Origin: Kribbella flavida DSM 17836
GTDB lineage: Bacteria > Actinomycetota > Actinomycetes > Propionibacteriales > Kribbellaceae
DNA length: 64,000 bases
Direction: 5' to 3'
Assembly (NCBI RefSeq): GCF_000024345.1
Contig: NC_013729.1
Location: 7,006,001-7,070,000, forward strand
How positions within the stretch are numbered: the first letter of the stretch is position 1; each line of letters starts with the position of its first letter. A program made the translations under genes and the position numbers. Shown piece by piece: positions 2,178-50,322 of the stretch. Below the pieces are notes generated by a model. It had not been told where the DNA came from. It searched no databases and saw nothing but the letters and a program-made list of their open reading frames with translations.

Positions 2178-3551
<1,374 letters not shown>

Positions 3552-3607
3552 GGAGGATTCCTTCCGGTCGCCGTTGACCGATCGGTGTGCCTCCCCGCTC
3601 TGTCGGA

Positions 3608-3735
3608 CGGCCGTCCTCCAGAGGTGCCTCGCCCGTGCGGTGAGGGGGCCTGAGAGATTCTGGGGAGAGTTGCTCCTACGGCGCCCGGGTCCGTACCACC
3701 TGCCGGCCCGGGTCTCTCCCGCACGGGTTCATGCG
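3608..3735 (-). promoter_or_regulatory. Glycine riboswitch in the sdaA leader
   Basis: Read on the minus strand, the leader has the conserved blocks of the glycine aptamer in order: GGGAGAGACC, GGCGCCGTAGGAGCAA, CCCCAGAATCTCTCAGGC, and finally CTCTGGAGGAC. The flanking CGTGCGG and CCGCACG segments can pair to form the basal helix. Only one aptamer is evident, rather than the classical tandem. It ends about 55 bases before the sdaA start, so it could act on transcription elongation or on translation. In this family glycine binding normally turns expression on; here it would draw down serine when glycine is plentiful. Confidence 0.9.
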
Positions 3736-3859
3736 GCTGTGCAGTTTGCTCTGTCGCCGCGACGGTACGGCGCGCTCGTGGCACGCGTCAATCCGGCGAG
3801 GGAGGCTTTTCCCCCACACGGGGGAACCGCCTCGGGCTCGACCCGTGGAGGCTGAACGC

Positions 3860-4783
3860 ATGACAACGATCACGCGGCCGGCAGGTGTCACCGCAACCAC
3901 CCGGCCGGCCTGGATGCACTGGGCGCCGCGGCTCACGGCCGGCTGGGCGGCGGCGTACGGGCTGGTGCGGGTGTGGTTCGCGACCGGGCACGCGCCGGAC
4001 TGGAAGTTCCCCGGCGGCGATCTGCTGCTTCCGGACTGGGCGTCCGTCGCCGCCTGCGTGATCAGCGCACTGGTCGTCGCCTGGCCGGCATCGCGGACCG
4101 GTGTCGTGCTCGCCTGGGCGGCGGCCGCCGGCTGGGTCGCCGTCTGCGCGATGGCGCTGCTCGACGTGATCGGCGGCGTCCTGCCCGGTCTGGGCATCCC
4201 CTTCGACCTCGCCGGGATGCTGAGCCGCTTCGGTGGCCTCACCGGCGCTGCACTGCTCGCCGCGACGGCTCTGGCTCGCCAGCGCCAGCTCGACCCGACC
4301 TGTCTGAGCTGCAGCGGCGGTCCGGCTCGAGTGAGCTCCACGCCGCGGTGGGCCGTGGCCGGAGCCCTCGTCGCCGTCGCAGGCTGCCTGATCCGGGTGG
4401 CCGCCCAGGCCGCCGTGGGCTTCGACTTCGTGCCGTACGACGCCGGACTGGCGATGATCGTGTTCGAGGGCGGGTTCCTGCTCGCCGGCATCGCGCTTCC
4501 ACTGCTGCTGGTGACGCGGATCGGCCGGGTGTTCCCGCGCTGGATGCTGCTGCTGCCCGGCGGCCTGCTCGGTGCCGGCATCACGGCGTACTTCGGGGTC
4601 GGGCTGCTGCAGATGGTCGTCGCGACGCTGTCGGGCGAGCCGGTCTACACCGATGTCGGCTTGCCGGCGAGCTTCTTCTGGGTGGCCGTGCCGGCGTACC
4701 TGGTGTGGGGCGCCGGTCTGGCGGTGGCGACCGCCGGCTACTGGCTGCGCACCCGCAAGCCGTGCGGGACGTGTGGGCGCTAG
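3860..4783 (+). CDS. polytopic membrane protein, unknown function
   Basis: A 307-residue protein with roughly seven to eight hydrophobic segments separated by short loops, including a Cys pair (TCLSCSGG) in a central loop and a C-terminal CGTCGR tail. No transporter signature is recognised. The ATG at 3860 has a good site (GTGGAGG) eight bases upstream and lies head-to-head with the sdaA riboswitch promoter region. The 3' end overlaps the convergent DUF3817 gene by four bases. Similar multi-pass proteins of unknown role are common in actinomycetes. Confidence 0.75.
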   Translation: MTTITRPAGVTATTRPAWMHWAPRLTAGWAAAYGLVRVWFATGHAPDWKFPGGDLLLPDWASVAACVISALVVAWPASRTGVVLAWAAAAGWVAVCAMALLDVIGGVLPGLGIPFDLAGMLSRFGGLTGAALLAATALARQRQLDPTCLSCSGGPARVSSTPRWAVAGALVAVAGCLIRVAAQAAVGFDFVPYDAGLAMIVFEGGFLLAGIALPLLLVTRIGRVFPRWMLLLPGGLLGAGITAYFGVGLLQMVVATLSGEPVYTDVGLPASFFWVAVPAYLVWGAGLAVATAGYWLRTRKPCGTCGR

Positions 4784-5112
4784 CGCAGGCGACCGGTCCG
4801 CGCCGCCCAGAGCTCGAAGAACCAGGTGAACAGCGGCGGGATGCTCGCGGCCAGCGCCAGCAGGGTGGTGGGCCAGCTCCAGCGCAGCGGCTTGCGGACC
4901 ACCGCGACGGTCAGCACGTAGAGCATGAAGATGCCGCCGTGGATCGGGCCGAAGATCTGCACGCCGATCTCGTTGTCGGACAGCACGTACTTGAACAGCA
5001 TGCCGATCAGCAGCCCGGTCCAGGAGATCGCCTCGGCGATCGCCACGACGCGGAACCAGGTCGCGTGCTTGGAACCAGCCGGCGCGTCCACGGCTGCAAC
5101 AGTCTCGGTCAT
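4780..5112 (-). CDS. DUF3817 family small membrane protein
   Basis: A 110-residue protein with three hydrophobic segments and the family pattern WFRVVAIAEAISWTGLLIGM followed by FGPIHGGIFMLYV and a final WPTTLLALAASIPPLFTWFF segment, typical of the DUF3817 (YdzA-like) integral membrane proteins widespread in actinobacteria. Function is unknown. The ATG at 5112 is chosen because the homology begins just after it; an upstream in-frame extension is poor coding sequence. Confidence 0.85.
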   Translation of the reverse strand: MTETVAAVDAPAGSKHATWFRVVAIAEAISWTGLLIGMLFKYVLSDNEIGVQIFGPIHGGIFMLYVLTVAVVRKPLRWSWPTTLLALAASIPPLFTWFFELWAARTGRLR

Positions 5113-5143
5113 CAGATCAGCGACCTTAACAAGCGCCTTCAAG

Positions 5144-5885
5144 TCAACCAGGACAGTGGGTCCGGGCCGGCACCGTCCCGTCCAGCAGGTAGGCCCCGAC
5201 CCGGTCGTCCACGCAGCGGTCGATCCCGCCGTACGCGCCGTGGCCGGTGCCGTCCCACCGGAGCAGGACGCCGGAGTCGAGCCGGCCGGCGAGTTCCTCG
5301 GCCCACGCGTAGCGGCCCAGGGGATCGCCGGTGTTGCCGAGGACAACAATCGGCGCGGCGCCCTCGCCGTCGATCGGGCGCTCCCGGCCGACGCCCGGGA
5401 ACGGCCACTGCGCGCAGGTGAGCAGCAGCATCCCGGTGAGCTGCCCGAACCGCGGAGAGGCCCTGGCGAAGGCCGGCATCGCCGCGCGAACGGTGTCGAC
5501 GGTCAGCCGGTCCGGGTGGTCGAGACAGTTGACGGCCGCGTTGACCACCGCGAAGTTCGAGAACGACCCGTCCGCGCGGCGACCGGTGAAGGCGTCGGCG
5601 AACCCCTGCAACGCCTCGCCCTGCCCGGCGTACGCCGCGGCGAGCGCGTCGCTGAGCCGGGACCACAGCGGCGGGTCGGAGAAGCCGATCGTGAGCGACG
5701 CGAGCACGCCTGAGCGCCTGAGCGGCGTACTGCGCTCGGTCGGCAGCGGCTTCACGTCCAACCGGGTGAGGAACGCGTCGAACGTCGCCAACGCGTCCTG
5801 CAGGTTCGCGCCCAGCGCGCACGGCGCCGACGCCAGGCAGTGCCGGACGGGCGGTGAGCACGAGCACGGTCGTCCGGCGAATCAT
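5144..5885 (-). pseudogene. Relic of a TAP-type S33 alpha/beta hydrolase: catalytic half deleted
   Basis: The frame from 5791 to 5144 encodes only the C-terminal half of a tripeptidyl-aminopeptidase-like hydrolase. It includes the TAP-like C-terminal region with VVLGNTGDPLGRYAWAEEL and the catalytic-His stretch WDGTGHGAYGG, but no GxSxG nucleophile and no oxyanion loop. Directly upstream, an ATG at 5885 starts a signal-peptide-like MIRRTTVLVLTA in a different frame, after which the segment HCLASAPCALGANLQDAL appears in yet another frame; it aligns with QWCADSTSCALHGRDVRALW of the intact neighbour. This is best explained by an internal deletion that fused the leader to the C-terminal half. Confidence 0.7.
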
Positions 5886-6034
5886 GCGATCAAATTAGCA
5901 CAGTCGTATTGAACGACCTGACCCGCAGCCTTCCCCCACGCGCCGTCCGGGGAGCGCTCCGGGACAGCACCGGATGCCGTGGCCGCGGGCAGAGCCAAGG
6001 ATCGACGGTGTCCCCCACCGACAGGAGAGCTCGT

Positions 6035-7528
6035 GTGAACATCCGACGCCGTACCACTGCCTGGGGCGTGGTTCTGGCCACCTCCCTGGCGACCCTCGGC
6101 CTGCCCACCGCCGCCGCTGCCCCGACGACTGCGAGCACCCCCGGCGCCGTCGCCTGGGAGCCGTGCCGGCCCGAGCCGGGCGACACCGAGCAGGAGCTGA
6201 AGCTGCTGCCCGGCTCCGAGTGCGCCACCGTGACCGTGCCGATCGACTGGAACCGCCCGTCCCGCGGCACCTTCGAACTGTCCATCGCCCGGCGCAAGGC
6301 CCAGCAGCAGCGGACCGGCGTCCTGGTCTTCGGGCCGGGCGGTCCCGGTGACTCCGGGGTCGAGCGGATCCGGACCGGGATGAGCCGGTTCAGCCAGCGG
6401 CTCGAGGACCGCTTCGACATCGTCAGCTTCGACCCTCGGGGCATTGCCCGCAGCAACCCGGTGATGTGCTCGGCCGCGCTGATCGCCCGCCAGCCGTCAC
6501 CGATCATGAAGAGCCAGGCCGACTTCGACCGCACGGTCCAGTACAACCGTGAGCTGGCTGCCGACTGCCGCACCCACACCGGCGCGCTGTACGACCACCT
6601 CGACATGCTGCAGACCGTGCGGGACGTCGAGGCGATCCGCCGCGCCCTGGGCGAGCAGCAGATCTCCTTCCACGGCAGCTCGTACGGCACGATGCTCGGC
6701 ACGCAGTACGCCGAAGCCTTTCCACAGCGCGTTCGGGCCCTGGTGCTGGAGAGCGTGAACGACCACAGCACGCCGACCACCCGGAGGTTTCTCACCGAGC
6801 AGGCAGCCACCGCCCAGGACTCGTTCGACGAGTTCGTGCAGTGGTGCGCCGACTCGACCAGCTGCGCACTGCACGGACGGGACGTGCGCGCGCTCTGGGC
6901 GGAGCTGCAGCGGCGCGCCGAGCTCGGTCAGGTCCCGGACCCGCAGCGGCCGCAGTACGCAACGACCCGGTTCATGCTGGGATTCGCGGTCTTCCGGCTG
7001 CTCTACGGTCCGGACTGGGCGCGGCTGGCGCAGACCCTGCGGGCGCTGGAGACCAGCCCGCCGCCGACCCAGCAACCGCCGGTTCCGACCGGGCTGGCGC
7101 CGTTCTCCTTCGCCCCGTTCTGCCAGGACTGGGACCTGCCGCTGCGCGACTACCGCGAGTACGCCGGCCTGCTGAAGCGTGTCGGCAGGGCGAACCCGGA
7201 GATGCGGTACCCGGGGCAACTGATGGCGATCACCACGTGTCTCGGCCTGCCGAGGGCGGACAACCCGCAGCACGTGCTGAAGGTGCGGGACCTGCGGACG
7301 CCTGCCCTGCTGACGAATTCGCTGCACGATCCGGCGACGGGGTACGAGTGGGCCCGCAACGTCGCGCGGCAGCTCGGCCGCCAGGGTGTGCTGCTGACCT
7401 ACGAGGGCTGGGGACACGGCAGCTACACCACGAGCCCGTGCGTCGAGGCACTGGTCGACAACTATCTCGTCGACCTGACCGTGCCGCCGCGGGGCACCCG
7501 GTGCGCCGCGATCCTCCCCACCGCCTGA
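6035..7528 (+). CDS. Secreted S33-family hydrolase, tripeptidyl-aminopeptidase (TAP)-like
   Basis: A 497-residue exported alpha/beta hydrolase. The signal peptide runs from the GTG at 6035 (preceded by AGGAG) to about the AAAAP at residue 32. The oxyanion loop is FGPGGPGDSG, the nucleophile is Ser216 in GSSYG, the acid is probably in SLHDPATGYEWA and the His is in WGHGSY. The C-terminal portion matches the TAP-like domain of Streptomyces tripeptidyl aminopeptidases, which release N-terminal tripeptides from extracellular peptides. A dead copy of the same family lies immediately upstream in the opposite orientation. Confidence 0.88.
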   Translation: MNIRRRTTAWGVVLATSLATLGLPTAAAAPTTASTPGAVAWEPCRPEPGDTEQELKLLPGSECATVTVPIDWNRPSRGTFELSIARRKAQQQRTGVLVFGPGGPGDSGVERIRTGMSRFSQRLEDRFDIVSFDPRGIARSNPVMCSAALIARQPSPIMKSQADFDRTVQYNRELAADCRTHTGALYDHLDMLQTVRDVEAIRRALGEQQISFHGSSYGTMLGTQYAEAFPQRVRALVLESVNDHSTPTTRRFLTEQAATAQDSFDEFVQWCADSTSCALHGRDVRALWAELQRRAELGQVPDPQRPQYATTRFMLGFAVFRLLYGPDWARLAQTLRALETSPPPTQQPPVPTGLAPFSFAPFCQDWDLPLRDYREYAGLLKRVGRANPEMRYPGQLMAITTCLGLPRADNPQHVLKVRDLRTPALLTNSLHDPATGYEWARNVARQLGRQGVLLTYEGWGHGSYTTSPCVEALVDNYLVDLTVPPRGTRCAAILPTA

Positions 7529-7536
7529 ACCGAAGG

Positions 7537-7573
7537 ATCACCCTCGGTTCACCGAAGATGAACCGAGGGTGAT
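7537..7573 (+). terminator. Perfect 15-bp dyad downstream of the TAP-like gene
   Basis: ATCACCCTCGGTTCA is followed seven bases later by its exact reverse complement, starting nine bases after the TAA/TGA region of the preceding gene. There is no T-run, which is usual for actinobacterial hairpin terminators. A related half-motif (GATCACCGTCGG...) recurs around 7622, so a regulatory role for the downstream protease gene is also possible. Confidence 0.65.
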
Positions 7574-7714
7574 GCCCGGCGGATCGAAGGCTTTCCCTTG
7601 AACCGGTCGCACCGACCCGTTGATCACCGTCGGTTTGCTTGTGGTCATCGTCGGTGAACCTCAACGATTCCCTCACCGTGGCCCTGTGAGGCAAGGCCAC
7701 CAGAGGAACCGGAT

Positions 7715-8980
7715 GTGACCATGTCCTTTGTTTCCCCGCCCCACCGCCCCCGTCAGCTGCGCAGGTCCCTGGCCGGCGCCGCGCTGGTGCTCGGGCTCGG
7801 CGCCGCCGCCCTGGCGCCGATCCAGTCCGCCAGCAGCGCGCCCGCTCCCCAGCCGGTCGACGGGGTGTACGACGTCCTCGGCAAGAGCTGGGGCGTCCCC
7901 GCGTCCGAGGCCAAGGCCCGGCTGGACGCCGAGCACCGGCTGGCGAACGCCCTGGAGACCGCGCAGGCCCAGCTGGCGAAGGCATCCCGCACCGCCGAGG
8001 CCGCTCCCGGCCTGGACGGCGCGTTCTTCGACGCCGACCGCCGGCTCGTGGTCAACGTGCACTCGGCCGAGGCCGCCGCGACCGCCAAGGCGCACGGGCT
8101 GACCCCGCGCACCGTGGCCCGCGGCGAGAAGGCGCTGGCCGCGCTGCAGACGCGGGTCCAGGCGCTGGCCGACCGGTCCGGCTCGACCCAGGTCCAGTCG
8201 ATCGGCGCGGACCTGCCCACCGACCGCCTGAAGGTTGTCCTGCAGCCCGGCGCGCGGACCGCCAAGACCGTTGCCCTGGTCAAGCAGTTGACGGCGCTGC
8301 CGGGGGTCGACGTCAGCACCAGCACCACCACGCTGGCGATGACCGCCGACGTGATCGGCGGCCAGATCATGGACCTGGTGCCGGGCAGCAACTGCTCGCT
8401 CGGCTACCCGGGCACGCTGAGCAACGGCAACAACGTGCTGCTCACCGCCGGCCACTGCGTCGAGGGCAACCCCGACGTGCTGAACCGGTCCGGCGTGCAC
8501 ATCGGCAAGGGCATCGCCAGCCGGTTCCGTACCGGGTACTCCAGCGTCGACATGGGCCTGATGGACATCGACGCCGAGGACGTCGGCCGCGGCTACATCG
8601 ACAACCGCAACGGCACCACCACCCGGGTCACCGGCTCGTCCAAGGCACCGGTCGGCAGCACGATCTGCAAGGCCGGCAACACCACGGGCTGGACCTGCGG
8701 AACGATCCAGCAGTACAACGTGACCGTGAATTACGGCGGCGCCGGTGGCAGCGTCACCCGCACCAGCGGCCTGGCCCGCTCGACCGTCTGCACCGAGGGC
8801 GGCGACTCCGGCGGCGCCTACATCTCCGGCACGATCGCCCAGGGCATGACGTCGGGCGGCCCGTCGGACGGCCACGACTGCGGCTTCAACCAGGGTGGCA
8901 ACGCCACCGGCTCGTACTCGTTCTACCAGCCGGTCGTGGACGCCGCGAGCTACTACGGCGTCACCCTCACCCGAGGCTGA
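7715..8980 (+). CDS. Streptogrisin-like secreted serine protease (S1E, with alpha-lytic-type propeptide)
   Basis: A 421-residue preproprotease. The signal peptide ends near residue 40 and is followed by a propeptide of about 170 residues resembling the alpha-lytic protease pro-region, the folding chaperone of this family. The mature domain begins near ADVIGGQIM. The catalytic triad is His247 (LTAGHCV), Asp279 (SSVDMGL) and Ser365 (GGDSGGAY), with Cys pairs as in streptogrisins. GTG 7715 is preferred to ATG 7721 because GAGGA sits seven bases before it. The enzyme degrades extracellular protein and fits the adjacent peptidase genes. Confidence 0.93.
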   Translation: MTMSFVSPPHRPRQLRRSLAGAALVLGLGAAALAPIQSASSAPAPQPVDGVYDVLGKSWGVPASEAKARLDAEHRLANALETAQAQLAKASRTAEAAPGLDGAFFDADRRLVVNVHSAEAAATAKAHGLTPRTVARGEKALAALQTRVQALADRSGSTQVQSIGADLPTDRLKVVLQPGARTAKTVALVKQLTALPGVDVSTSTTTLAMTADVIGGQIMDLVPGSNCSLGYPGTLSNGNNVLLTAGHCVEGNPDVLNRSGVHIGKGIASRFRTGYSSVDMGLMDIDAEDVGRGYIDNRNGTTTRVTGSSKAPVGSTICKAGNTTGWTCGTIQQYNVTVNYGGAGGSVTRTSGLARSTVCTEGGDSGGAYISGTIAQGMTSGGPSDGHDCGFNQGGNATGSYSFYQPVVDAASYYGVTLTRG

Positions 8981-8993
8981 TCCCCGGCCGAGC

Positions 8994-9023
8994 CGAAGCC
9001 CTCACCACCCGGTGGGGGCTTCG
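8994..9023. terminator. Bidirectional terminator hairpin
   Basis: CGAAGCCC pairs with GGGCTTCG, with an inner CACC/GGTG extension, between two convergent genes (stops at 8980 and 9031). There is no extended T-run. Confidence 0.75.
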
Positions 9024-9030
9024 CTCACGC

Positions 9031-9255
9031 TCAGACGGACTCGAGCACGCGGCACAGCTGGTCGCCCCGGACCACCCGGCTGGACAGTTCCAGCAGCTCG
9101 CCGCAGGCGGTCTCCAGCGCCTGCGACTGGGTGCGGCAGCCGTCGACGTACCAGAACGGGTCGTCGGGCTGCGGGTCGTCCGCGTCGTCGATGTCGGCGT
9201 ACCAGTGCCGGTCACCGGCACAGCCGCAGTACAGCACCCGCACCCGCAGGTTCAT
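9031..9255 (-). CDS. Small acidic Cys-containing protein, unknown
   Basis: A 74-residue product beginning MNLRVRVLYCGCAGDRHWY and followed by an Asp-rich segment (ADIDDADDPQPDD). Four Cys residues are spread along the chain (CGC early, single Cys later). The ATG at 9255 follows GGGGGA in the proper position. No family was recognised; the size and composition suggest a cytoplasmic small protein conserved among related actinomycetes. The 196 bases upstream (9256-9451) contain no credible gene. Confidence 0.6.
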   Translation of the reverse strand: MNLRVRVLYCGCAGDRHWYADIDDADDPQPDDPFWYVDGCRTQSQALETACGELLELSSRVVRGDQLCRVLESV

Positions 9256-9451
9256 GGCCGTTCCCCCGTAGCGATGACGTCCCTGGGTCCCCCCGGATCC
9301 CAGTCGGAGTCGTCCGGCCGGCGCGTGACCGCGGCCCCCCACTGCCACGCGCCGAGCCGAGATCGACCCTCCCCCGCTGACTACATCGGCGCCGACCGGG
9401 CCGGTGTTACAGCCCGTGACGACAATTTTTGGGCCGGCTCGGCCCGGGTAC

Positions 9452-10873
9452 TCAGCGCAGCTGGTCCTTGACCCACTGCTCCAGCCCGTCGGCGGTGATC
9501 GGCAGCGGGTCGGTGAGGATCTCCAGACGGTCAGCGTGCACGACGACGTTGTCCTCGATCCGGATGCCGATGCCGCGCAGCTCGGGCGGCACGGTCTCGT
9601 CGTGCGGGTGGAAGTAGAGACCGGGCTCGACCGCCAGCGCCATCCCGGCCTCGAGGTCGGCGGCGAAGTACGTCTCCGGCCGGGCCGCGTCGCAGTCGTG
9701 CACGTCGAGGCCGATGAAGTGGCCCAGCCCGCACACGACGTACCGGCGGTGCTGCTGACCGTCCGGCCCGAGCGCTTCGTCCAGCGAGACGTCGATGAGC
9801 CCCCAGTCGCGCAAACCCTCGACCAGCACCCGCATCGCCTCGTACTGGAAGGCCCGGTACGGCGCCCCGGGGCTGACCGCCGCGAGCGCCGCGAGCTGCG
9901 CCTGGTGGACCAGGTCGTACACCTGGCGCTGGGCAGCGGTGAACTCGCCGGTCGCCGGGAACGTCCGGGTCACGTCGGCGGTGTAGAGTGTCCGGGTCTC
10001 GACCCCGGCGTCCAGCAGGATCACGTCGCCCTCGCGAACGGCGCCGTCGTTGCGGACCCAGTGCAGCACCGGCGCATGCTGGCCGGCGGCGACGATCGAC
10101 GCGTAGCCGACGCCGTTGCCGGCGGTCCGCGCGCGCCGGTCGAAGGTGCCCTCCAGCCAGCGTTCGCCACCGCCGCGGATCGCCTCCGGCAGCTCCCGGG
10201 CGACGTCGGCGAAGCCCTGCACGCTCGCGGCGACGGCCTCGCGCAGCTGGTCGAGCTCCCAGTCGTCCTTGATCCGGCGCAGCTCGGCGAGCGTCTGGCG
10301 CAGGATGTCACCGTCGGACCGTGAGGTCCGAACCAGAGCGTCCAGCATCGGGTCGACGCCGGGCGCGGTGAGCATGTACGGCACGGCGCCGCGCACCGCC
10401 GCCGGCAGCTCCTCGATCGGCCGGCAGGCGATCTGCAGCGCCTCGGACCAGTCCTTCAGCCCCGGCACCGGGCCGATCCACAACTCGCCGTCGCGGGCGC
10501 TCGCGAAGTAGTCGGCCTCGTCCGGCCCGGCGGCCTCGCGCAGGTACAGGGTCGCGTCGCCGTCGGCGGACAGCACCAGGACGGCGCCCTCGGCCTGGCA
10601 GCCGGTCAGCCAGACGAAGTCGCTGTCGGCGCGGAACCCGTAGTCGGTGTCGTTCGACCGGACGGGCGCGTGACCCGCGCCGAGGGCGATCCGCCGTCCC
10701 GGCAACGCGGTCACCAGCCGCCGCCGGTGCTCGGCGGCGGCTTCGGCGAGCCCTTCGGGCAGCACCACCGACCGGTCCACCGGCCCCCAGTGCAACGGGA
10801 TCGAGGCGCGGAAGCCCGCCGCGTCGATCGGCCGGTACGACTTGCGCTGTTCTTCGGTCCGGTCTTCGGACAT
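9452..10873 (-). CDS. pepP: Xaa-Pro aminopeptidase (aminopeptidase P, M24B)
   Basis: A 473-residue cytoplasmic metallopeptidase that removes an N-terminal residue preceding proline. The N-terminal creatinase-like domain (about residues 40-190) is followed by the pita-bread M24 domain. Metal ligands are in the expected order: the two Asp of [20 protein letters not shown], His in [12 protein letters not shown], Glu in AVEPGLYFH, and Glu in [10 protein letters not shown]. The ATG at 10873 has GGAGGAG ideally placed; a longer reading upstream to 11080 lacks support. Xaa-Pro (and Xaa-Hyp) peptides processed here could feed the imino acid pathways encoded downstream. Confidence 0.93.
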
Positions 10874-42951: not shown

Positions 42952-43548
42952 TCAGCCGCCAGAACTCCCGCCGAGTATGGATCCACCGCCTTGCCCTGAA
43001 CGGCTGCGCCGATAGAGGTCGCGGAGCAGGCAGATCTCGGCGCCGTGGTGAACGACCTCCACACTCGTGTACAGGACCTTCCTCGCCATCGGAGCGTCGG
43101 CGAACTCCGGCGGAACCGATGCACCTTGCGGCTCGGCAAGCCCTCTGTCGCCGAGTCGCCGCACCCCTTCGACCCACGTGTCATGGGCGTCGTCGAGCTG
43201 ACGGAGCGCCTGCTGGGCGTCGCCCGCACAGTCGAACGACGCGATGTGCGCCGGCGGGCCGCCGAAGTCCGTGCCGTTCATCTCTGCGAATCCGACGATC
43301 AGATGCGCGAGACGCCAGGCGATGGTGGTGACCGGCTCTGACTTCGCGCCTCACCGAAGTCCCAGGTGAAGTCTTCGTTCCCGAGTGACACCGGCGCCGA
43401 GCTCGCCCCTCGGCGGCTGACTGTCCAGCAACCGGAACCGGCTGCCAGAAGTAGTCATCATCGGTCAGGCCATCGAGCCGAGACGCAGCCGATGCCGCCA
43501 GTGCGACTCGAGCTGCTCGATCAGCTCTGCGTTCCAGTCGACGCCCAT
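42952..43548 (-). pseudogene. DinB-family gene broken by three frameshifts
   Basis: The reading starts at ATG 43548 with MGVDWNAELIEQLESHWRHR. It shifts frame near 43485 to LDGLTDDDYFWQPVPV, near 43435 to CWTV followed by PVSLGNEDFTWDFGEA, and near 43345 to SEPVTTIAWRLAHLIVGFAE. It then continues in a single open frame (42952-43281) to VEVVHHGAEICLLRDLYRR. Put together the pieces give one normal DinB protein of about 190 residues with its metal-binding His near the end. Individual open pieces are unlikely to be functional. Confidence 0.85.
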
Positions 43549-43649
43549 CGCCGGATGGTAGCCCGCACTACTCCACCGCGCTGGACTACCGGGCCAAGGG
43601 GCGCTGCCGTCCGCCGCTGTGCGCAGATTGCTCGCGATGGCTTCGGAGG

Positions 43650-43735
43650 TCTCGCCCGACACCACTCATAGTCGAGCTCTGACACCAACTCGGTCGGGCG
43701 GCATGGGAGTGTTGGTCTGACTCGACACCACCCGT
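43650..43735 (+). repeat. Left copy of an inverted repeat flanking the TetR-SDR-MFS cassette
   Basis: CCGACACCACTCATAG, then TCGAGCTCTGACACCAACTC, then TGTTGGTCTG and TCGACACCACC. The same blocks in the same order occur inverted at 47947-48026, with about 80 percent matching bases by eye. Confidence 0.75.
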
Positions 43736-43841
43736 GAGTTGCTGGTGGCGTCGACCATGGTGACGAGTTCGAGTCGCTCGCGCGGTGTGAGCGGTGTTGA
43801 TGCAATGGGCCTGTGGCCTGGTCGATCGATCGGCGGCCGGC

Positions 43842-44471
43842 TCAGTGGTCACGGTGACTCTGCTCGGCGGTAGGCCAGTTCTGCACTGCCAGCTCTGCGA
43901 CCGCTTGGAGGGTCTCGGGTGCTACGCCGCTGGCGGCTTGGACTGCGATGCCGTTCCCGACTGTCATCAGATAGCGGGCGAGGAGTTCGGGGTCCGTGTC
44001 GGCGGGGAGGTCGCCCTCGTCGATGGCGCGGGTGAATCGTTCGCGCAGCATGGTGGCGGCATCGTTGCGCCAGTTGGCCAGGGTTTCCTGGGTGCGGCGG
44101 GATGCCTCTCCGACCGCGAGACCGGCCTGGACGCCCATGCATCCAGCAGGATCACCCGGATGTGTCGTGGCCTCTACGGCGCCGGCGAGGAAGGCTGTGG
44201 CGACCGCGCGGGCGGTCGGCTGTTGCCGGGCTCGGACGGCGTACGAGGCGGGGCCTTCGGTGTAGCGCTGGAGAGCCTTCTGGAAGAGCTCCTCCTTGTT
44301 TCCGAACGCCGCGTACATGCTCGTCCGAGTGATGCCCATCGCGTCGGTGAGAGCGCTGAGGCTCGCGCCTTCGTACCCGTGCTCCCAGAAGACGCGCATC
44401 GCGCGTTCCAGGGCCGCGTCGGCGTCGAAGCCGCGGGGGCGCCCGGGCGATGCCTTCTGCTGAGCCTGCAT
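43842..44471 (-). CDS. TetR-family regulator of the adjacent SDR cassette
   Basis: A 209-residue regulator. The HTH is FDADAALERAMRVFWEHGYEGASLSALTDAMGITRTSMYAAFGNKEELF, and the C-terminal domain carries GCMGVQAGLAVGE and RYLMTVGNGIAVQAASG, typical of the AcrR/YxaF-like group controlling reductases. It is divergent from the SDR gene, with two matching operator sites between them. Confidence 0.9.
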   Translation of the reverse strand: MQAQQKASPGRPRGFDADAALERAMRVFWEHGYEGASLSALTDAMGITRTSMYAAFGNKEELFQKALQRYTEGPASYAVRARQQPTARAVATAFLAGAVEATTHPGDPAGCMGVQAGLAVGEASRRTQETLANWRNDAATMLRERFTRAIDEGDLPADTDPELLARYLMTVGNGIAVQAASGVAPETLQAVAELAVQNWPTAEQSHRDH

Positions 44472-44491
44472 GCCGCCATCGTACCCGTTAT

Positions 44492-44543
44492 GTACCGATC
44501 GATACGCATTGTGCTACCGTCACTATTCAGTACCGATCGGTGC
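44492..44543. promoter_or_regulatory. Twin TetR operator sites
   Basis: GTACCGATCGATAC (44492-44505) and GTACCGATCGGTGC (44530-44543) share the palindromic core ACCGATCGGT-type sequence. They lie between the divergent TetR and SDR starts. Confidence 0.8.
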
Positions 44544-44583
44544 ATAAATGGGTGGTTCTAGCCGCCCGCGAGAGCGGAGACAC

Positions 44584-45327
44584 ATGATGGGGCAGTTCGA
44601 AGACAAGACGGCGGTAGTGACCGGCGGCAACGCTGGCATCGGCCTGGCCACGGCCAAGCGGTTGGCAGCCGAAGGTGCGCATGTCTTCATCACCGGACGC
44701 CGGGAGGCCGAGTTGCACCAGGCCGCCGCCGTCATCGGCAACGCAACCGCGGTGCCCGGCGACGTGAGCGTCGCGGCCGACGTGGACCGGCTCTACCAGC
44801 GCGTGCAGGATCGGGGCCAGGGCCTCGACGTGGTGTTCGCGAACGCCGGGATCAATGCCCTGGTCGGGCTGGAGGAGCTCACCGAGGAAATCCATGACTC
44901 GATCTTCGACATCAACGTCAAGGGCACCTTCTTCACCGTGCAGAAGTCGTTGCCGCTCCTCAACGACGGTGCGGCGATCGTGCTCACCGGTTCCACCGCC
45001 GCTGAGGGCGGCGCCGCGGGCATGAGTGCCTACGGCGCCTCCAAGGCAGCCATCCGCGCCTACGCCCGCGCGTGGGCAAGCGAGCTCGGCCCCCGGGGCA
45101 TCCGAGTCAACGTCGTCTCCCCGGGCCCGGTGGACACCCCGCTGTGGGACACCGCCTTCGGGGACCGTCGGGAGGAGATGATCGCCGGCGTCGCGGCCGG
45201 CATTCCTGCTCAGCGACCCGGGGATCCGGACGAGATCGCCGCCGCCGTCGCCTTCCTGGCCTCGCCCCAGAGCAGCTTCGTCTACGGCGCGAACCTCTAC
45301 GTCGACGGCGGGCTGGGCCAGATCTAG
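44584..45327 (+). CDS. SDR-family oxidoreductase
   Basis: A 247-residue classical short-chain dehydrogenase. It has the cofactor motif TGGNAGIGLATAKRLAAEG, FANAGIN, the catalytic Ser in VLTGSTAAEGG and the YxxxK pair in MSAYGASKAAIRAYARAW, then VVSPGPVDTPLW. Substrate unknown. ATG 44584 with GGAG upstream. The stop overlaps the GTG of the next gene by one base, so it is co-translated with the Gfo/Idh gene. Confidence 0.92.
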   Translation: MMGQFEDKTAVVTGGNAGIGLATAKRLAAEGAHVFITGRREAELHQAAAVIGNATAVPGDVSVAADVDRLYQRVQDRGQGLDVVFANAGINALVGLEELTEEIHDSIFDINVKGTFFTVQKSLPLLNDGAAIVLTGSTAAEGGAAGMSAYGASKAAIRAYARAWASELGPRGIRVNVVSPGPVDTPLWDTAFGDRREEMIAGVAAGIPAQRPGDPDEIAAAVAFLASPQSSFVYGANLYVDGGLGQI

Positions 45328-46445
45328 TGACCAGCCTTGGGTCAGCACCCACGGGTCGCGCCACGAACCGTCCGATTGGTGTCGGTGTCGTCGGGCTGAG
45401 CGCCGCGGGCGGCTGGGGAGCCGGGGCCCACCTTCCGGCGATGGTCGCGGCCGATGGTTTCGAGCTCCGTGGACTCGTGGGCAGCACGGACGAGTCGGCG
45501 CGCGCCGCCAGCCGACGCTACGGTGCGCCGTCGTACGCCTCGGTCGAGCAACTGGCGGCCTCGGACGATGTCGATCTCGTCGTGATCACGGTGAAGACCC
45601 CGAGCCACCGGGACCTGGTCCGATCTACGACCGCTGCTCGGAAGCCGGTCTTCTGCGAGTGGCCCTTCGCCGTCGACCACTCCGACGCGGTGGAGCTGGC
45701 CGCGTCGGCGGCCGGTGTCGCTACCTTCGTCGGCCTCCAGGGCCGGTCCTCGCCACACTTCCGGTGGCTGCGTGACTTGGTTGCCGCCGGCTACGTCGGC
45801 GAGTTGCTCTCGGTGACGGTCTCCTCCACCGTTACCGAGTGGGGTGGACCGGTCTCCGAAGGATCGCTCTACACCCTCGATCGGGATCAGGGCGGGTCGA
45901 TGCTCGGAATCGGGTTCGGGCATGCCATCGATCCGGTCCTGATGGTGGTCGGAGAGCTTGTCGATGTGGTGGCGACGACGGCAACCCGCCATCCCCGGGT
46001 GCCGCTGGGTGGCACCGGACGACTGGTGCCGATGACCAGCGTGGACCAGATCGCAGTCTCCGGCACCCTGCCGGGGGGTGCAGTGCTCTCCGCGCACCAA
46101 CGCGGCGGCACCGCCTCCGGCCCGGGGTTCTGGCTGAGGATCGACGGTAGCCGGGGGACGCTCGAGGCCACTGCCCGCAACCATCCCCACATCGCGCCCG
46201 TGACGGTACGCGGCGCCCTGGGCGGACACCCCCTGACCGAACTGACCCTGCCTGCGGCGTACGACGAATTCCCGCGCTTGGCGGGGTCCCACCTCCACAC
46301 CCTGGCACACGCCTACGCACGGATCGGACACCAACTGCGTGGCGGCGCCACCGAGATACCCGACTTCGCGCACGCCGTCACCCGCCACCGCCTCCTGGAC
46401 GCGATCACCGAGTCCGCGGCGACCGGTCGCCGTATCTTCCTCTGA
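45327..46445 (+). CDS. Gfo/Idh/MocA-family oxidoreductase
   Basis: A 372-residue NAD(P)-dependent dehydrogenase. The Rossmann start is IGVGVVGLSAAGGWGAGAHLPAM, and the EKP-equivalent motif is altered to CEWPFA, so the usual catalytic Lys of EKP is missing. The C-terminal beta-sheet domain has GSMLGIGFGHAIDPVLMVVGEL. Members with this branch include galactose 1-dehydrogenase-like Gal80/Idh proteins. GTG 45327 overlaps the SDR stop. Confidence 0.87.
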   Translation: MTSLGSAPTGRATNRPIGVGVVGLSAAGGWGAGAHLPAMVAADGFELRGLVGSTDESARAASRRYGAPSYASVEQLAASDDVDLVVITVKTPSHRDLVRSTTAARKPVFCEWPFAVDHSDAVELAASAAGVATFVGLQGRSSPHFRWLRDLVAAGYVGELLSVTVSSTVTEWGGPVSEGSLYTLDRDQGGSMLGIGFGHAIDPVLMVVGELVDVVATTATRHPRVPLGGTGRLVPMTSVDQIAVSGTLPGGAVLSAHQRGGTASGPGFWLRIDGSRGTLEATARNHPHIAPVTVRGALGGHPLTELTLPAAYDEFPRLAGSHLHTLAHAYARIGHQLRGGATEIPDFAHAVTRHRLLDAITESAATGRRIFL

Positions 46446-46535
46446 ACCGAGCAACACCTTCGCCCGAGTGGCCGAACTCCCGGCCGCTCAGGGCGGCTAC
46501 GGCCGCATCACGTCGACCCATGCAAAGGACCGACC

Positions 46536-47690
46536 GTGACTACCCATGCCGATCCATCCCCGACAGCCGCCAAGACCGAGAACTGGCCCGGCGTCATCGC
46601 GCTTGGCCTGGGCATCTTCGCTCTCATCACGGCCGCGTTCCTTCCCGCGGGACTGCTGCCCCGCATCGCCGGTGGCCTCGACGTCTCAGCAGGCGTCGCC
46701 GGACAGACCGTGAGCGTGACCGCCTTCGCGGCCGCGGCATCGGCTTTCCTCATCGCCGTCGTGCTGCCCCGCGCCGACCGGCGCCGCGTGATGATCGGCC
46801 TCACCCTGCTCGCCATCGCCTCGAACCTCATCGTCGCGATCGCTCCCAACCTCGCCGTACTCCTCCTCGCACGAATCCTGCTCGGGATCGCGCTCGGTGG
46901 TTTCTGGGCGATGGCCACCGCCGTGGCCTCGCACCTGGTGAACCCCGAACGACTCGGCCGCGCTCTGACCGTCATCAACACCGGCGTCGCCCTCGCGACT
47001 GTCGCAGCCGTGCCGATCGGCGCCTACCTGGGGGACGCCTGGGGTTGGCGCGCGGTCTTCGTCGTAGGTGCCGGCGCAGCAGCGATCGCGCTGATCGTCC
47101 AGGCAACCACGTTGCCACATGTCGAGCCCGTCAGCGCCAGCAGCATCAAGGCACTCGGTGCTGTGCTGCGCTCCGGGGTCGTGCTGGCCGGCCTCCTCGG
47201 AATCCTGCTCGTCTTCAGCGGTCACTTCAGCGGGTTCACCTATATCCGACCGGCCACCGAGACGCTCTCGAACCTCGACGCCGGCGCCTTCGCTCTGTTG
47301 CTGCTCGTCTTCGGCATCGCCAACTTTCTCGGCACCCTCCTGGCGGGCCTGCTTGCCGACCGAGCGCCGAGAATCGGCCTCCTGCTCTTCCCGGTCGTCA
47401 TCGGTGCGGGAATGCTGCTCACGTACGCCGCCAGTGGCTCGACTGCACTGCCCTTCGTCGCCGCAGCAGCGTGGGGCCTCGGCTTTGGTGGCGTCCCAAC
47501 CACCGTGCTCAGCTGGAGCGCTCGAACCGAACCAACTCGCGTGGAACAAGTCAGCGGTGTCATCGTCACCGTCTGCAACGTCGCCATCGCCGTTGGGGCC
47601 GGTATCGGCGGGACTCTCGCTGACAGCACCTCGCCCACCACACACTGCTGGTCGGCGCCATCGCAGCCATGGCCGGTGGCCTCATCCTGA
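46536..47690 (+). CDS. MFS transporter (DHA1 type) with a C-terminal frameshift
   Basis: 384 residues in the open frame, with eleven clear membrane segments. It has the MFS loop 2-3 pattern LPRADRRRVMIGL, LLLARILLGIALGGFWAMATAV and LVNPERLGRALTVINTG, as in sugar-efflux or arabinose-efflux type exporters. The frame ends in non-hydrophobic SPTTHCWSAPSQPWPV. One base away, the DNA continues HTLLVGAIAAMAGGLILTSL, which is the expected twelfth helix. The gene therefore carries a frameshift near 47640 and has probably lost its last helix. Confidence 0.82.
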   Translation: MTTHADPSPTAAKTENWPGVIALGLGIFALITAAFLPAGLLPRIAGGLDVSAGVAGQTVSVTAFAAAASAFLIAVVLPRADRRRVMIGLTLLAIASNLIVAIAPNLAVLLLARILLGIALGGFWAMATAVASHLVNPERLGRALTVINTGVALATVAAVPIGAYLGDAWGWRAVFVVGAGAAAIALIVQATTLPHVEPVSASSIKALGAVLRSGVVLAGLLGILLVFSGHFSGFTYIRPATETLSNLDAGAFALLLLVFGIANFLGTLLAGLLADRAPRIGLLLFPVVIGAGMLLTYAASGSTALPFVAAAAWGLGFGGVPTTVLSWSARTEPTRVEQVSGVIVTVCNVAIAVGAGIGGTLADSTSPTTHCWSAPSQPWPVASS

Positions 47691-47730
47691 CCAGCCTCCG
47701 CCGCCCAAGGCCGTGCACAGGACCAGTGCG

Positions 47731-47925
47731 TCCGCCGGGCGAGAAGCGTTCTTCGAGGGCCACGCCCCCGCGTACCAGGTCCTCGGTGGAGTCCCGATCG
47801 GGAAGATCCGCTACGACAACCTCGAGGCCGCGGTCGCGAGAGTAATCAGGTTCTCCCGTCAACGAGTCGGGGCCGAGGGGTGGACCGCGTTCCGATCTCA
47901 TTACCGCATCGAAGCCTTCTACTGA
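47731..47925 (+). mobile_element. Fragment of an IS21-family transposase (IstA)
   Basis: The segment REAFFEGHAPAYQVLGGVP followed by IGKIRYDNLEAAVARVIRFS and WTAFRSHYRIEAFY is an internal part of the DDE domain of IstA. Its Asp-Asn-Leu (DNL) motif is intact, but all flanking parts of istA and the partner istB are absent. It is fused in frame to the out-of-frame tail of the MFS gene region. Confidence 0.82.
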
Positions 47926-47946
47926 CCGCTGCCGGGCACGGGTGGT

Positions 47947-48026
47947 GGTGTCGATGCAGACCAACATCGCTGGCGCTGATCCCGCCCAGTTGGTGTCAGA
48001 ACTCGGCTATGAGTGGTGTCGGACGA
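47947..48026 (-). repeat. Right copy of the inverted repeat flanking the cassette
   Basis: In reverse complement it reads CCGACACCACTCATAG, CCGAGTTCTGACACCAACTG, GATGTTGGTCTG and ATCGACACCACC, matching the left copy at 43650-43735. It overlaps the supposed N-terminus of the next gene. Confidence 0.75.
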
Positions 48027-50322
48027 AACCCCCGTAGCCACTCGCGAGGTCCTCCTGTTCCGGTGTGCCGGCCTGGACGCTGACTGCCCGAGGGGCACGC
48101 CGGGGGATTCCTTGCCTCGCGATGACGTCGGCCGGTACCGTCCGAAGGACCGTGGCGCCGCGCCGGCGCTGACTGCTGTAGGAGGCGGCATCGAGTCTGC
48201 CGAGAAGCCGCCTGCGTCCTTCCCCGCCGACGGGGACGACGCTCCGGTCGAGCGCGAAGAGAAGCCCGTTGAGCACGGAGTCAAGCAAGCCCCGGTCGAG
48301 CGCGACGACGCGGCCTCCGGCCGGCGGCGGCCGGGACCACCGCGCTTCGTGCCGACCGGAGACTCCGCGGGCGAGACGACGTCGGCGCAGGCGGTGCTGC
48401 TGGCCACGGCGGGCGCTGCTTTCCTGACGGTCGCGGCGGTACTGCTGCTCACCGGCTGGGCGTACGCGACCGCCACGGGAAGCACGGACCTGAACCGACG
48501 TGACGTGGATCCGGTGTTCGAGGTCCGCGACAAGCTGGTCTGGATCGCGGCCCTGGTGATCGCCGGCTCCTTGGGCTTGGTGCTCGCCCTGATCAAGCGA
48601 CCAGTACGGCGCCTGCTGGAGTCCTGGCCGGTCCTCTTCCTGACGGTGGCCGGCACGGCCGGTGTGGCGTACTCGGCCGCGTGGGTTGACGGCTGGATCG
48701 GATTCGGTCCGGCGAACCTGCTCCTGGCGGTTGCCCTGGTCCCGCTCCTGGTCTTCGCCGTCGGCCCGTGGTCCCGAGGTGCAGTGCCCTTCCTGTGGCC
48801 GGCGGTCGTGGCGCTCGGCCTGGTGCTGTACTTGCCGGCTCTGTGGCAGACCCCCCGCGGCATGTACGACCCGTACCACGCCGCACGCAACATCGACGAG
48901 CTGCTCGGACCAGTGGCCGGCAGCTTTCCGCTGTCCGACTACGTCCCGCAGTACGGCGGGATGCTTGGCCTGCCACTGATCCCGTTCCGGTCGCTGGTGG
49001 CAGCCGACGTCGAGTGGTGGATCATGTCCTACCTCTCGGTGCTCAGCGTGATCACCGTCGTCGCGTTGTGCGTTGCCGCGGCCATGATGCTCCCCCGCGG
49101 GCGACGTGCGCTCGCGCCGCTGCTGGTGATTCCCGTCCTGCTGATGAAACCGAGCAGCCCGGACGGCCTGACTCCCGCCGGAGTCCAGCGCCTGTTCCAG
49201 ACCATCCCGGAACGGTCCCTGTTGCCGGTGCTGCTGGGAGTCGTCCTGTTGCTCGCCGCCTCGCGGATGCAGGCGCGGAGCCGCTGGATCTGGGTCGGGG
49301 TCATCTCCTGCCTCGCCGCGCTGCACAACATCGAGTCCGGGGTGCCGGCCACCGTCGCGGCCGCGCTGCTCCTGGTCGCGCTGCGCGCAGGGTGGCGCGC
49401 CCTCGGGTACTTCGCGGCCGCGTGGATCGGCGTTGTCGTGGTGTACGCCGGCGTCCTGGCGCTCGCCGGTGGTTCGTTGCGGCCGGAGTACTGGGCGGGC
49501 TTCGTGCTGGAGTTCGCCAACGGCTTCGCGCAGCTGCCCATGCCGCCGTACGGCAACTACGTCTTCGTGCTCTTCGTCCTGGTGGCGGGCACCGCCAGCG
49601 CCTTCCCCGTCGTCTGGCGAGGCCCTGCCGCCATGTCGGTGGCGGCCACCGGCGGCCTGTACTTCGGCGCGTGGGGTCTGCTGATGTTCCCGTACTACGT
49701 GGGCCGGTCCAGCAGCCTCGGCCAGCTCCAGTTCTTCCTCATCCCGGCCAGCGTCGCCGCCATCTGGCTGCTGATCGGGGCCGCCAGGGCCGTGCAGGTC
49801 CGGCGCCTCACCCCTCGCCTGGCCTACGCGGTCCTGCTGTGCTGCCTTCCCGCTGCCCTGTGCGCCACCACCGTGATGAAGGCGCCGTGGCCGGAGACGA
49901 ACCTGAAGCGCCTCACCGGTGGCTTCTCCCCCGACAGCGATTTCCGGAGCACGGCGCACGGCCCGCGGCCGGTCGTCGACGAGCAACAGGCGCAGCTCAT
50001 CCGCGACGTGAGCGCCGACGCGCGCAAGCCGGTCGGCTTGTTCTTCACCTCCGGCAACGTGGCGGCACTGAGAACCGGCCTGCCCAACGCCTCGGTCCTG
50101 GCCGTCCCGCAGGAACTGATGGCCCGGCGCCCGTGGTCCGGCGACCCCAACGACACGGGCAACGCCGCGTTCCGCCGCATGCAGTGCCGATCCTTGCAGC
50201 AGTCCGACCTCAACTCGGTCATCGCCGAGGACCTGATCGCGGACGCCCTCGACAGCTGCACGGGCTTCACCCGAGGACAACTGGACCGCGGCATGGTCGT
50301 CTTCACCCGAACCTCCGGCTGA
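48013..50322 (+). CDS. Large polytopic membrane protein, GT-C-like architecture
   Basis: Up to 769 residues. The first 110 residues are polar and low-complexity. About a dozen membrane segments follow from AVLLATAGAAFLTVAAVLLL to about residue 615, then an extracytoplasmic C-terminal domain of 150 residues with Cys in RRMQCRSLQQSD and DALDSCTGF. The loop LYLPALWQTPRGMYDPYHAARNIDE, with its Asp residue, is like the first loop of GT-C glycosyltransferases. Start is uncertain: GTG 48013 lies inside the inverted repeat, so the true N-terminus may have been replaced or lies downstream. The 3' end overlaps the next gene by 20 bases. Confidence 0.7.
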   Translation: MVSDETPVATREVLLFRCAGLDADCPRGTPGDSLPRDDVGRYRPKDRGAAPALTAVGGGIESAEKPPASFPADGDDAPVEREEKPVEHGVKQAPVERDDAASGRRRPGPPRFVPTGDSAGETTSAQAVLLATAGAAFLTVAAVLLLTGWAYATATGSTDLNRRDVDPVFEVRDKLVWIAALVIAGSLGLVLALIKRPVRRLLESWPVLFLTVAGTAGVAYSAAWVDGWIGFGPANLLLAVALVPLLVFAVGPWSRGAVPFLWPAVVALGLVLYLPALWQTPRGMYDPYHAARNIDELLGPVAGSFPLSDYVPQYGGMLGLPLIPFRSLVAADVEWWIMSYLSVLSVITVVALCVAAAMMLPRGRRALAPLLVIPVLLMKPSSPDGLTPAGVQRLFQTIPERSLLPVLLGVVLLLAASRMQARSRWIWVGVISCLAALHNIESGVPATVAAALLLVALRAGWRALGYFAAAWIGVVVVYAGVLALAGGSLRPEYWAGFVLEFANGFAQLPMPPYGNYVFVLFVLVAGTASAFPVVWRGPAAMSVAATGGLYFGAWGLLMFPYYVGRSSSLGQLQFFLIPASVAAIWLLIGAARAVQVRRLTPRLAYAVLLCCLPAALCATTVMKAPWPETNLKRLTGGFSPDSDFRSTAHGPRPVVDEQQAQLIRDVSADARKPVGLFFTSGNVAALRTGLPNASVLAVPQELMARRPWSGDPNDTGNAAFRRMQCRSLQQSDLNSVIAEDLIADALDSCTGFTRGQLDRGMVVFTRTSG

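Follow-up and report, generated by a model that had tools for sequence, protein, structure and literature searches.

A probable IS21-family transposon remnant carrying a TetR-SDR-Gfo/Idh-MFS operon in Kribbella flavida

How does a small operon of regulator, reductase and exporter genes come to lie between two inverted copies of one sequence, and did it arrive there as a single mobile unit? The question is raised by a locus in Kribbella flavida DSM 17836, within a stretch of 64,000 nucleotides (contig NC_013729.1, positions 7,006,001 to 7,070,000 of the forward strand) that is called the window here, at its full length, and gives the coordinates used below. An earlier note, made from the letters alone, had described an inverted repeat at 43650-43735 and 47947-48026 enclosing TetR, short-chain dehydrogenase/reductase (SDR), Gfo/Idh and MFS genes and a transposase fragment. 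The repeat is real and slightly longer, with arms at 43638-43735 and about 47944-48040, and Pfam searches of the window's open reading frames (ORFs) identified all four gene families. The unit is best explained, with a probability of roughly 0.87, as what is left of one IS21-family transposon in which this operon lay between the left end and the transposase gene istA, and which was inserted as one unit. Its features are as follows.

43631..43637, no strand: left copy of the target-site duplication, CTCGCGA, a 7-bp direct repeat outside the TG/CA termini
43638..43735, plus strand: left transposon end, TGGCT..., with [CT]GACACC at +20, +43 and +86; 44/50 to the right end and in register with the ends of relatives
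43842..44471, minus strand: TetR-family regulator (cargo); Pfam PF00440/PF16925; 75% identity to the TetR protein of Microbacterium sp. MPKO10
44492-44505 and 44530-44543, no strand: two palindromic operator-like sites between the TetR and SDR genes, with similar aligned counterparts in the spacer of the Microbacterium operon
44584..45327, plus strand: SDR (cargo); Pfam PF13561/PF00106; 83% to the Microbacterium protein; start codon picked by eye
45327..46445, plus strand: Gfo/Idh/MocA oxidoreductase with a Gal80-like C-terminal domain (cargo); Pfam PF01408/PF22685; relatives at 67-74% in other genera
46536..47690, plus strand: MFS exporter (cargo); Pfam PF07690; final residues in a shifted frame
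47706..47924, plus strand: internal fragment of an IS21 istA, about residues 171-242 of 558; 82% DNA identity over 219 bp to the istA of genome G035; positions 155-216 of model NF033546, 30 bits
47944..48040, minus strand: right transposon end, ...AGCCA; resembles that of an intact IS21 element of genome G341 at 80% over 96 bp, and those of nine others in the genus at 74-78%
48041..48047, no strand: right copy of the target-site duplication, CTCGCGA, a 7-bp direct repeat outside the TG/CA termini

The unit spans 43638-48040 (4403 bp), starts with TG and ends with CA, and its arms agree at 88% over 56 nucleotides and at 91% over another 23, with a small offset separating the two blocks. When all 50-nucleotide TG/CA pairs lying 0.5-12 kb apart across the whole window were scored, this pair matched at 44 of its first 50 positions and the runner-up at 35 of 50. 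Within the 7.58-Mb genome of the organism, the repeat was found at these two places alone. Both the TG...CA termini and the CTCGCGA duplication that stands exactly outside them are features beyond those in the earlier note. Inside each terminus, [CT]GACACC recurs at +20, +43 and +86/88, as it does in the right end of an IS21 element in genome G035 of the same genus, and TGTTGG is found at +73/75 in both window ends and both ends of that element. The window ends also align in register with the ends of three further relatives (L138, L139 and L157). The earlier note had considered that the repeat might be a conserved part of two unrelated genes; a repeat of that kind, or one due to chance, is the least probable explanation of all, had nothing found in its favour and was rejected on the end-pair score and on the match of the arms to the termini of IS21 elements.

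Target-site duplications in the IS21 family range from 4 to 8 bp, and that of the window has 7 bp, while those of its relatives, where one was found, mostly have 6 bp. The excerpted text of PMC10122671 gives a duplication of 5 bp and describes ends with repeated sites (L1/L2 and R1/R2) and CA termini, the repeated sites being bound by IstA. The window shows TG...CA termini with at least two repeated sites in each end. What it has in common with the family (IS21, IS5376; proteins IstA and IstB) is a piece of IstA, these termini, several repeated sites per end and a short target duplication; it differs by the addition of four passenger genes, by an istA reduced to 72 codons and by the absence of istB.

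The transposase fragment recognized earlier is indeed a piece of IS21 IstA, as judged by the DNA match, by protein matches of its 72 residues and by the curated IS21 transposase model NF033546, although the score in the latter lies below the cut-off of 160 bits; the fragment has no Pfam match of its own. Its protein identity is 82% to L138, 82% to L157, 79% to L038 (the G035 element) and 74% to L139, and at most 72% to the remaining 17 IstA rows compared. Intact relatives pass the curated models for both proteins; the IstA of the G035 element, for example, passes the IS21 transposase model at 219.5 bits (NCBIfam cut-off 160) and its IstB passes the IstB model at 252.3 bits (NCBIfam cut-off 200). 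In the window, the right end follows directly after the istA piece and there is no istB, which intact relatives possess; because istB is absent, the window element is classed as a derivative of an IS21 element and not as a complete member. The fragment is also the sole match of the transposase model in its own genome at E <= 1e-5, a search that found no partner IS21 transposase elsewhere, and the element therefore appears stranded.

These findings also bear on the arrangement proposed in the earlier note, a "composite or non-autonomous mobile unit" that belonged to no standard named IS (insertion sequence). A mobile-element unit that is now non-autonomous through the loss of istA and istB (istAB) is what the evidence supports, but its ends and transposase piece place it in the IS21 family. 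A composite transposon, in which two IS copies flank a passenger segment, would account for inverted arms around a gene cassette and yet is very improbable: the arms are terminal sequences of about 97 bp rather than IS copies, and between them lies one 72-codon istA piece with no istB after it. It was rejected for want of two IS copies, and this anatomy could be reconciled with it only if two such copies had each decayed as far as its outer end.

Where did the cargo come from? All four genes occur in the same order and orientation in Microbacterium sp. MPKO10, with protein identities of 75, 83, 67 and 67%, although the latter has about 1 kb extra between the Gfo/Idh and MFS genes that is absent from the window. 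No match to the window element ends was found in the 13.1 kb examined of the Microbacterium locus, which looks like a source-type operon. The order of the genes is thus held without the repeat, but in another genus and not at the same locus, so that this case does not speak against a mobile unit in the way the earlier note had envisaged for relatives that keep the order and lack the repeat. DNA similarity to the Microbacterium MFS gene extends to 47705, which corresponds to the last codons of that gene; judged against this homologue, the window gene has a 1-nucleotide frame change near its end and has lost its stop codon. In a collection of species genomes, scanned in a way that reaches close relatives only, the Gfo/Idh protein has relatives at 26 loci, four of them, the Microbacterium locus included, at 67-74% identity and the remainder at 31-42%. 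A search of 391 genomes of the order added one relative (69%), and the other genomes of the genus gave none at E <= 1e-60. Around the other three loci at 67-74% and in the order genome, nearby relatives at 52% identity or more are limited to TetR and Gfo/Idh. MFS relatives within the genus (E <= 1e-30) reach at most 38% identity; among protein models, NepI scores best for the MFS protein, with a 'sugar transporter' model and then Cmx/CmrA next, each of the three far below its cut-off. The operon probably serves export or detoxification under repression by TetR and probably originated in another actinomycete; the palindromes at 44492-44543 are putative operators.

Whether the operon travelled with these ends can be approached through relatives in the genus. 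In four of 38 genomes, the organism's own included among the 38, the istA piece and the right end both have matches at one place, about 1.7 kb apart (G009, G015, G030 and G035), a spacing that fits a full istA-istB pair. Among the matches listed, the right end occurs without the istA piece in G006, G013, G016, G034 and G037, and a further search added a right-end match in G033. The element in G035 (L038) is complete, with 7367 bp and the duplication ACCTGG, and reads PadR, ABC ATPase with a DrrA-type C-terminal domain, ABC permease, a further ORF, alpha/beta hydrolase, istA, istB and right end. Copies in other genomes have the same cargo at 95-99% identity in long aligned blocks, and their flanks are unshared within the roughly 20 kb compared, except for two short weak matches in L044; three copies are flanked by duplications (CCATAT, CAGGGA and GCCGA). 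As a separate observation, L038 contains a direct repeat of about 356 bp at 8510-9607 (reverse strand of that locus), so that its PadR and ABC-ATPase ORFs start with identical residues.

A second intact element, L177 (G341, 2595-10066 of that locus), has 7472 bp, GGTCGG on both sides and intact istA and istB. Among the right ends found, its own is closest to that of the window, and its istA matches the window piece at 81% DNA identity. Its cargo differs from that of the window and consists of TetR, a DrrA-like ATPase, an ABC permease and a UvrA-like protein of 756 residues, the DrrA and UvrA model scores falling just below their cut-offs.

These elements help to judge whether the operon was recombined at a later time into a plain IS21 element already resident here, the cargo never having moved with the ends. 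Plain elements of about 2.5 kb do occur in the genus and order, such as one of 2539 bp at three sites in G017, and the cargo-istA junction in the window is abrupt. Nevertheless, later entry is disfavoured by the layout of the elements whose IstA proteins most resemble the fragment, all of which have genes to the left of istA, and by the L038 cargo, one such set, which is found between its ends at several unrelated locations. We regard this sequence of events as unlikely.

The relatives also speak to how the window element lost its transposition genes. Five of the ten L038-type loci, a count that includes the L038 reference, have lost most of istA-istB and kept the cargo (L042, L044, L045, L046 and L178), with breakpoints that all differ; both end regions persist in three of the five (L044, L045 and L046). 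The loss in the window element is of this type: istAB is gone, and cargo and ends are kept. A variant of the proposed history differs in timing: istAB may already have been lost when the unit was moved here in trans by the IstA and IstB of another element, as a mobile insertion cassette (MIC), a mode of movement proposed for the MICs of other IS families. In favour of this, istAB is gone from a unit that retains its two ends and a clean 7-bp duplication, and elements that lack a transposase of their own and can be activated by a related one are a described kind (excerpted text of PMC3129680 and PMC3281130). The unit is, however, a single copy in a genome where no partner transposase was found, and the individual breakpoints of the deleted L038 copies would be expected from decay after insertion and not from the spread of one deleted form. 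Movement in trans is therefore a minority possibility, and decay in place is judged more likely than movement after the deletions, since the sister copies, at separate sites, each lost istAB between breakpoints of their own.

Termini, duplication, the family of ends and fragment, the parts missing by comparison with relatives and the homology of the cargo are all observed; the order of events, like the function of the cargo and the present mobility of the element, we infer. In an intact ancestor, IstA would have bound the repeated [CT]GACACC sites at both ends, as in the IS21 mechanism. IstA, aided by IstB, would then have joined the CA termini to target DNA, and a staggered cut would have left the 7-bp duplication; the excerpted texts of PMC10122671 and PMC11208146 describe IstB as needed for correct target duplications. 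One internal deletion would have removed the MFS stop codon together with the first 170 or so istA codons, and another the rest of istA and all of istB. Both ends and the cargo are still present, and any further movement would need IstA and IstB from elsewhere.

The sequence around the element was compared as well. The left neighbour (42952-43548, minus strand) has a DinB_2 domain (26.1 bits) and several frame changes of its own. The earlier note had described a broken gene on this side; because the gene apparently starts at 43548, which leaves 89 bp between it and the element, and because of these frame changes, the insertion did not break it, and it is apparently a pseudogene for other reasons. 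On the right, an ORF at 48013-50322 overlaps the right end of the element, although its natural start may lie further downstream; its 769 residues have no Pfam match and no relatives in 37 other genomes of the genus (E <= 1e-20) or in 292 other genomes from the order, genus included (E <= 1e-40). The right flank DNA has short weak matches only, in 20 other genomes of the 38, with a best E of 5e-6. A left-end query found no match in plasmids, and its sole match in a family-wide search, which covered the same 38 genus genomes, was the organism's own genome. Queried with the whole element, plasmids gave 298 records, none covering more than 80% of the query; the 10 matches listed cover the TetR-SDR part only.

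Several observations weigh against a unit inserted as a whole. No empty site was found, the right neighbour gene having no match in the genus and order genomes searched. The element is present in a single copy, with its ends and duplication as the sole indication that it moved as a unit. CTCGCGA sits within the near-palindrome CTCGCGAG and is hence nearly an inverted repeat too, although the direct-repeat reading is gap-free and the inverted one requires a gap. The left end of the G035 element has the motif pattern of the window ends minus the +20 site. Among the copies of that element, two that keep both end regions (L044 and L046) have no duplication that could be found, and four lack the left end (L041, L042, L043 and L178), L043 retaining the right end only.

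Is the window element an isolated case? Ends were sought around 28 istA loci chosen, non-randomly, from the better matches in the genus, the order and plasmids (L177 excluded), with five block shuffles per locus as a control. The five nearest relatives with delimited ends all carry cargo and measure 3.9-7.5 kb (L038, L138, L139, L157 and L177); four have 6-bp duplications and the fifth, L139, comes without flanking sequence. At 12 of the 28 loci, about 1 kb of cargo or more lies between accepted ends (L038, L138, L139, L140, L141, L143, L153, L156, L157, L161, L162 and L163), with a 6-7-bp duplication in all but L139, L140 and L143 (9/12). Elements of about 3.1 kb account for two loci (L158 and L166) and plain ones of about 2.5 kb for six (L145, L149, L150, L151, L154 and L155); the ends are ambiguous in two (L146 and L152), and none were found in six (L142, L144, L159, L160, L164 and L165). 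The end score of L163 (30) falls within its own shuffled range and the accepted pair of L157 ties for the top score, so that acceptance of both rests on the duplication; the pairs accepted for L145 and L149-L151 lie within the shuffled range and are not top-scoring, and that of L154 is not top-scoring either. L143 and L153 are near-copies and not independent. The cargo elements that were characterized are listed here by the side of istA on which the cargo lies.

L138, 4332 bp, duplication TCCCTG: left of istA, TetR and hydrolase
L139 (G142), 4741 bp: left, MarR and MFS
L157, Rhodococcus plasmid, 3933 bp, duplication ACCTAC: left, winged-helix regulator and DUF1761
L163, Mycolicibacterium plasmid: left, TetR, hydrolase and TetR
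L140 (G199), 8794 bp: right of istA, ArsA ATPase, pyridine-nucleotide disulphide oxidoreductase and ACR3 arsenite efflux
L141: right, acetyltransferase
L143 (G114), 9930 bp: right, response regulator, kinase, multicopper oxidase and copper-type P-ATPase; no exact duplication
L153 (G238), 9930 bp: near-copy of L143 with nearly identical IstA; duplication CCTGTCG
L161: right, glyoxalase-superfamily gene
L162: right, TetR gene

Two of the records have unusual bounds. The L139 contig is one IS21 cargo element from end to end, as could arise if the element were multicopy or had been assembled as a circle. L158 (NZ_CP129139.1) is a 4001-base linear 'plasmid' record that consists mostly of a 3.1-kb IS21 element with a 7-bp duplication, and may be an unplaced contig.

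In an IstA tree of 21 rows, four of the five left-cargo elements (L139, L038, L157 and L138) form a clade with 100/99 support, the right-cargo elements fall in three places and four plain elements form one group. Since the window istA fragment is closest to members of the left-cargo clade, cargo on the left would be the expected ancestral layout of the window element. On balance, we favour the view that there is a distinct lineage of IS21 cargo transposons in Actinomycetota, in which a loading slot to the left of istA has been filled repeatedly by a regulator (TetR, MarR, PadR or winged helix), joined in most of the cases seen by a gene for export (MFS or DrrAB(C)-type ABC transporter) or for detoxification (hydrolase). 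In such a lineage, IstA and IstB would move 4-7.5 kb, and the history of an element would often end with cargo fixed between its ends after the loss of istAB, the window element being one such relic. Other IS21 elements, in the three places of the tree, have their cargo, which includes arsenic, copper and acetyltransferase genes, after istB. It counts against the proposed origin of the window element that L163, with its cargo on the left, stands outside the left-cargo clade and has ends that align poorly.

The usual description of IS21 elements is of small units limited to istA and istB, and in the records examined here the annotation names istA and istB and does not assign the cargo to the element. 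How does the present layout compare with known systems? ISLxc1 of Leifsonia xyli (IS21 family, 2631 bp) is likewise actinobacterial, with listed ends that both start with TG and a disrupted istA, but its end sequence differs and the excerpted text of PMC2516522 mentions no passenger genes. Transporter IS (tIS) are described, in the parts of PMC8496243 drawn on here, as IS with passenger genes unrelated to transposition, IS1 and IS1595 being given as examples (the term is also found in PMC3129680). The window element shares with them passenger genes inside the ends of one IS, and differs by its IS21 ends and transposase and by the lack of a working transposase; its passenger genes are inside the ends in single copy, and the L038 cargo is inside its ends at several sites. 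MICs have been described in Bacillus cereus and in qnrS2 cases (excerpts of PMC3281130 among the sources). They have in common with the window IS-type ends around passenger genes and no transposase gene of their own (72 istA codons are left here), whereas the window element retains this istA remnant and its movement in trans is a proposal only.

The resistance gene cfr lies between copies of IS21-558, and the cargo in the window lies instead inside one element. The two systems are comparable in that IS21-family sequences are linked to the movement of a resistance gene in the cfr case: according to the excerpted text of PMC9137128, IS21-558 plays a part in the mobility of cfr. A literature search limited to open-licence papers found none that could be recognized as a description of IS21 elements with internal passenger genes, nor any that reports tIS in the IS21 family. 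The cargo-carrying layout thus seems little described, with weak support for novelty because the search covered a partial set of the literature.

If regulated operons for export, detoxification and metal resistance are regular freight of this lineage, a simple two-protein system would handle some of the gene traffic in soil actinomycetes and in the plasmids they carry. In that case, the cargo capacity of IstA and IstB would become directly testable with natural ends and natural cargo sizes.

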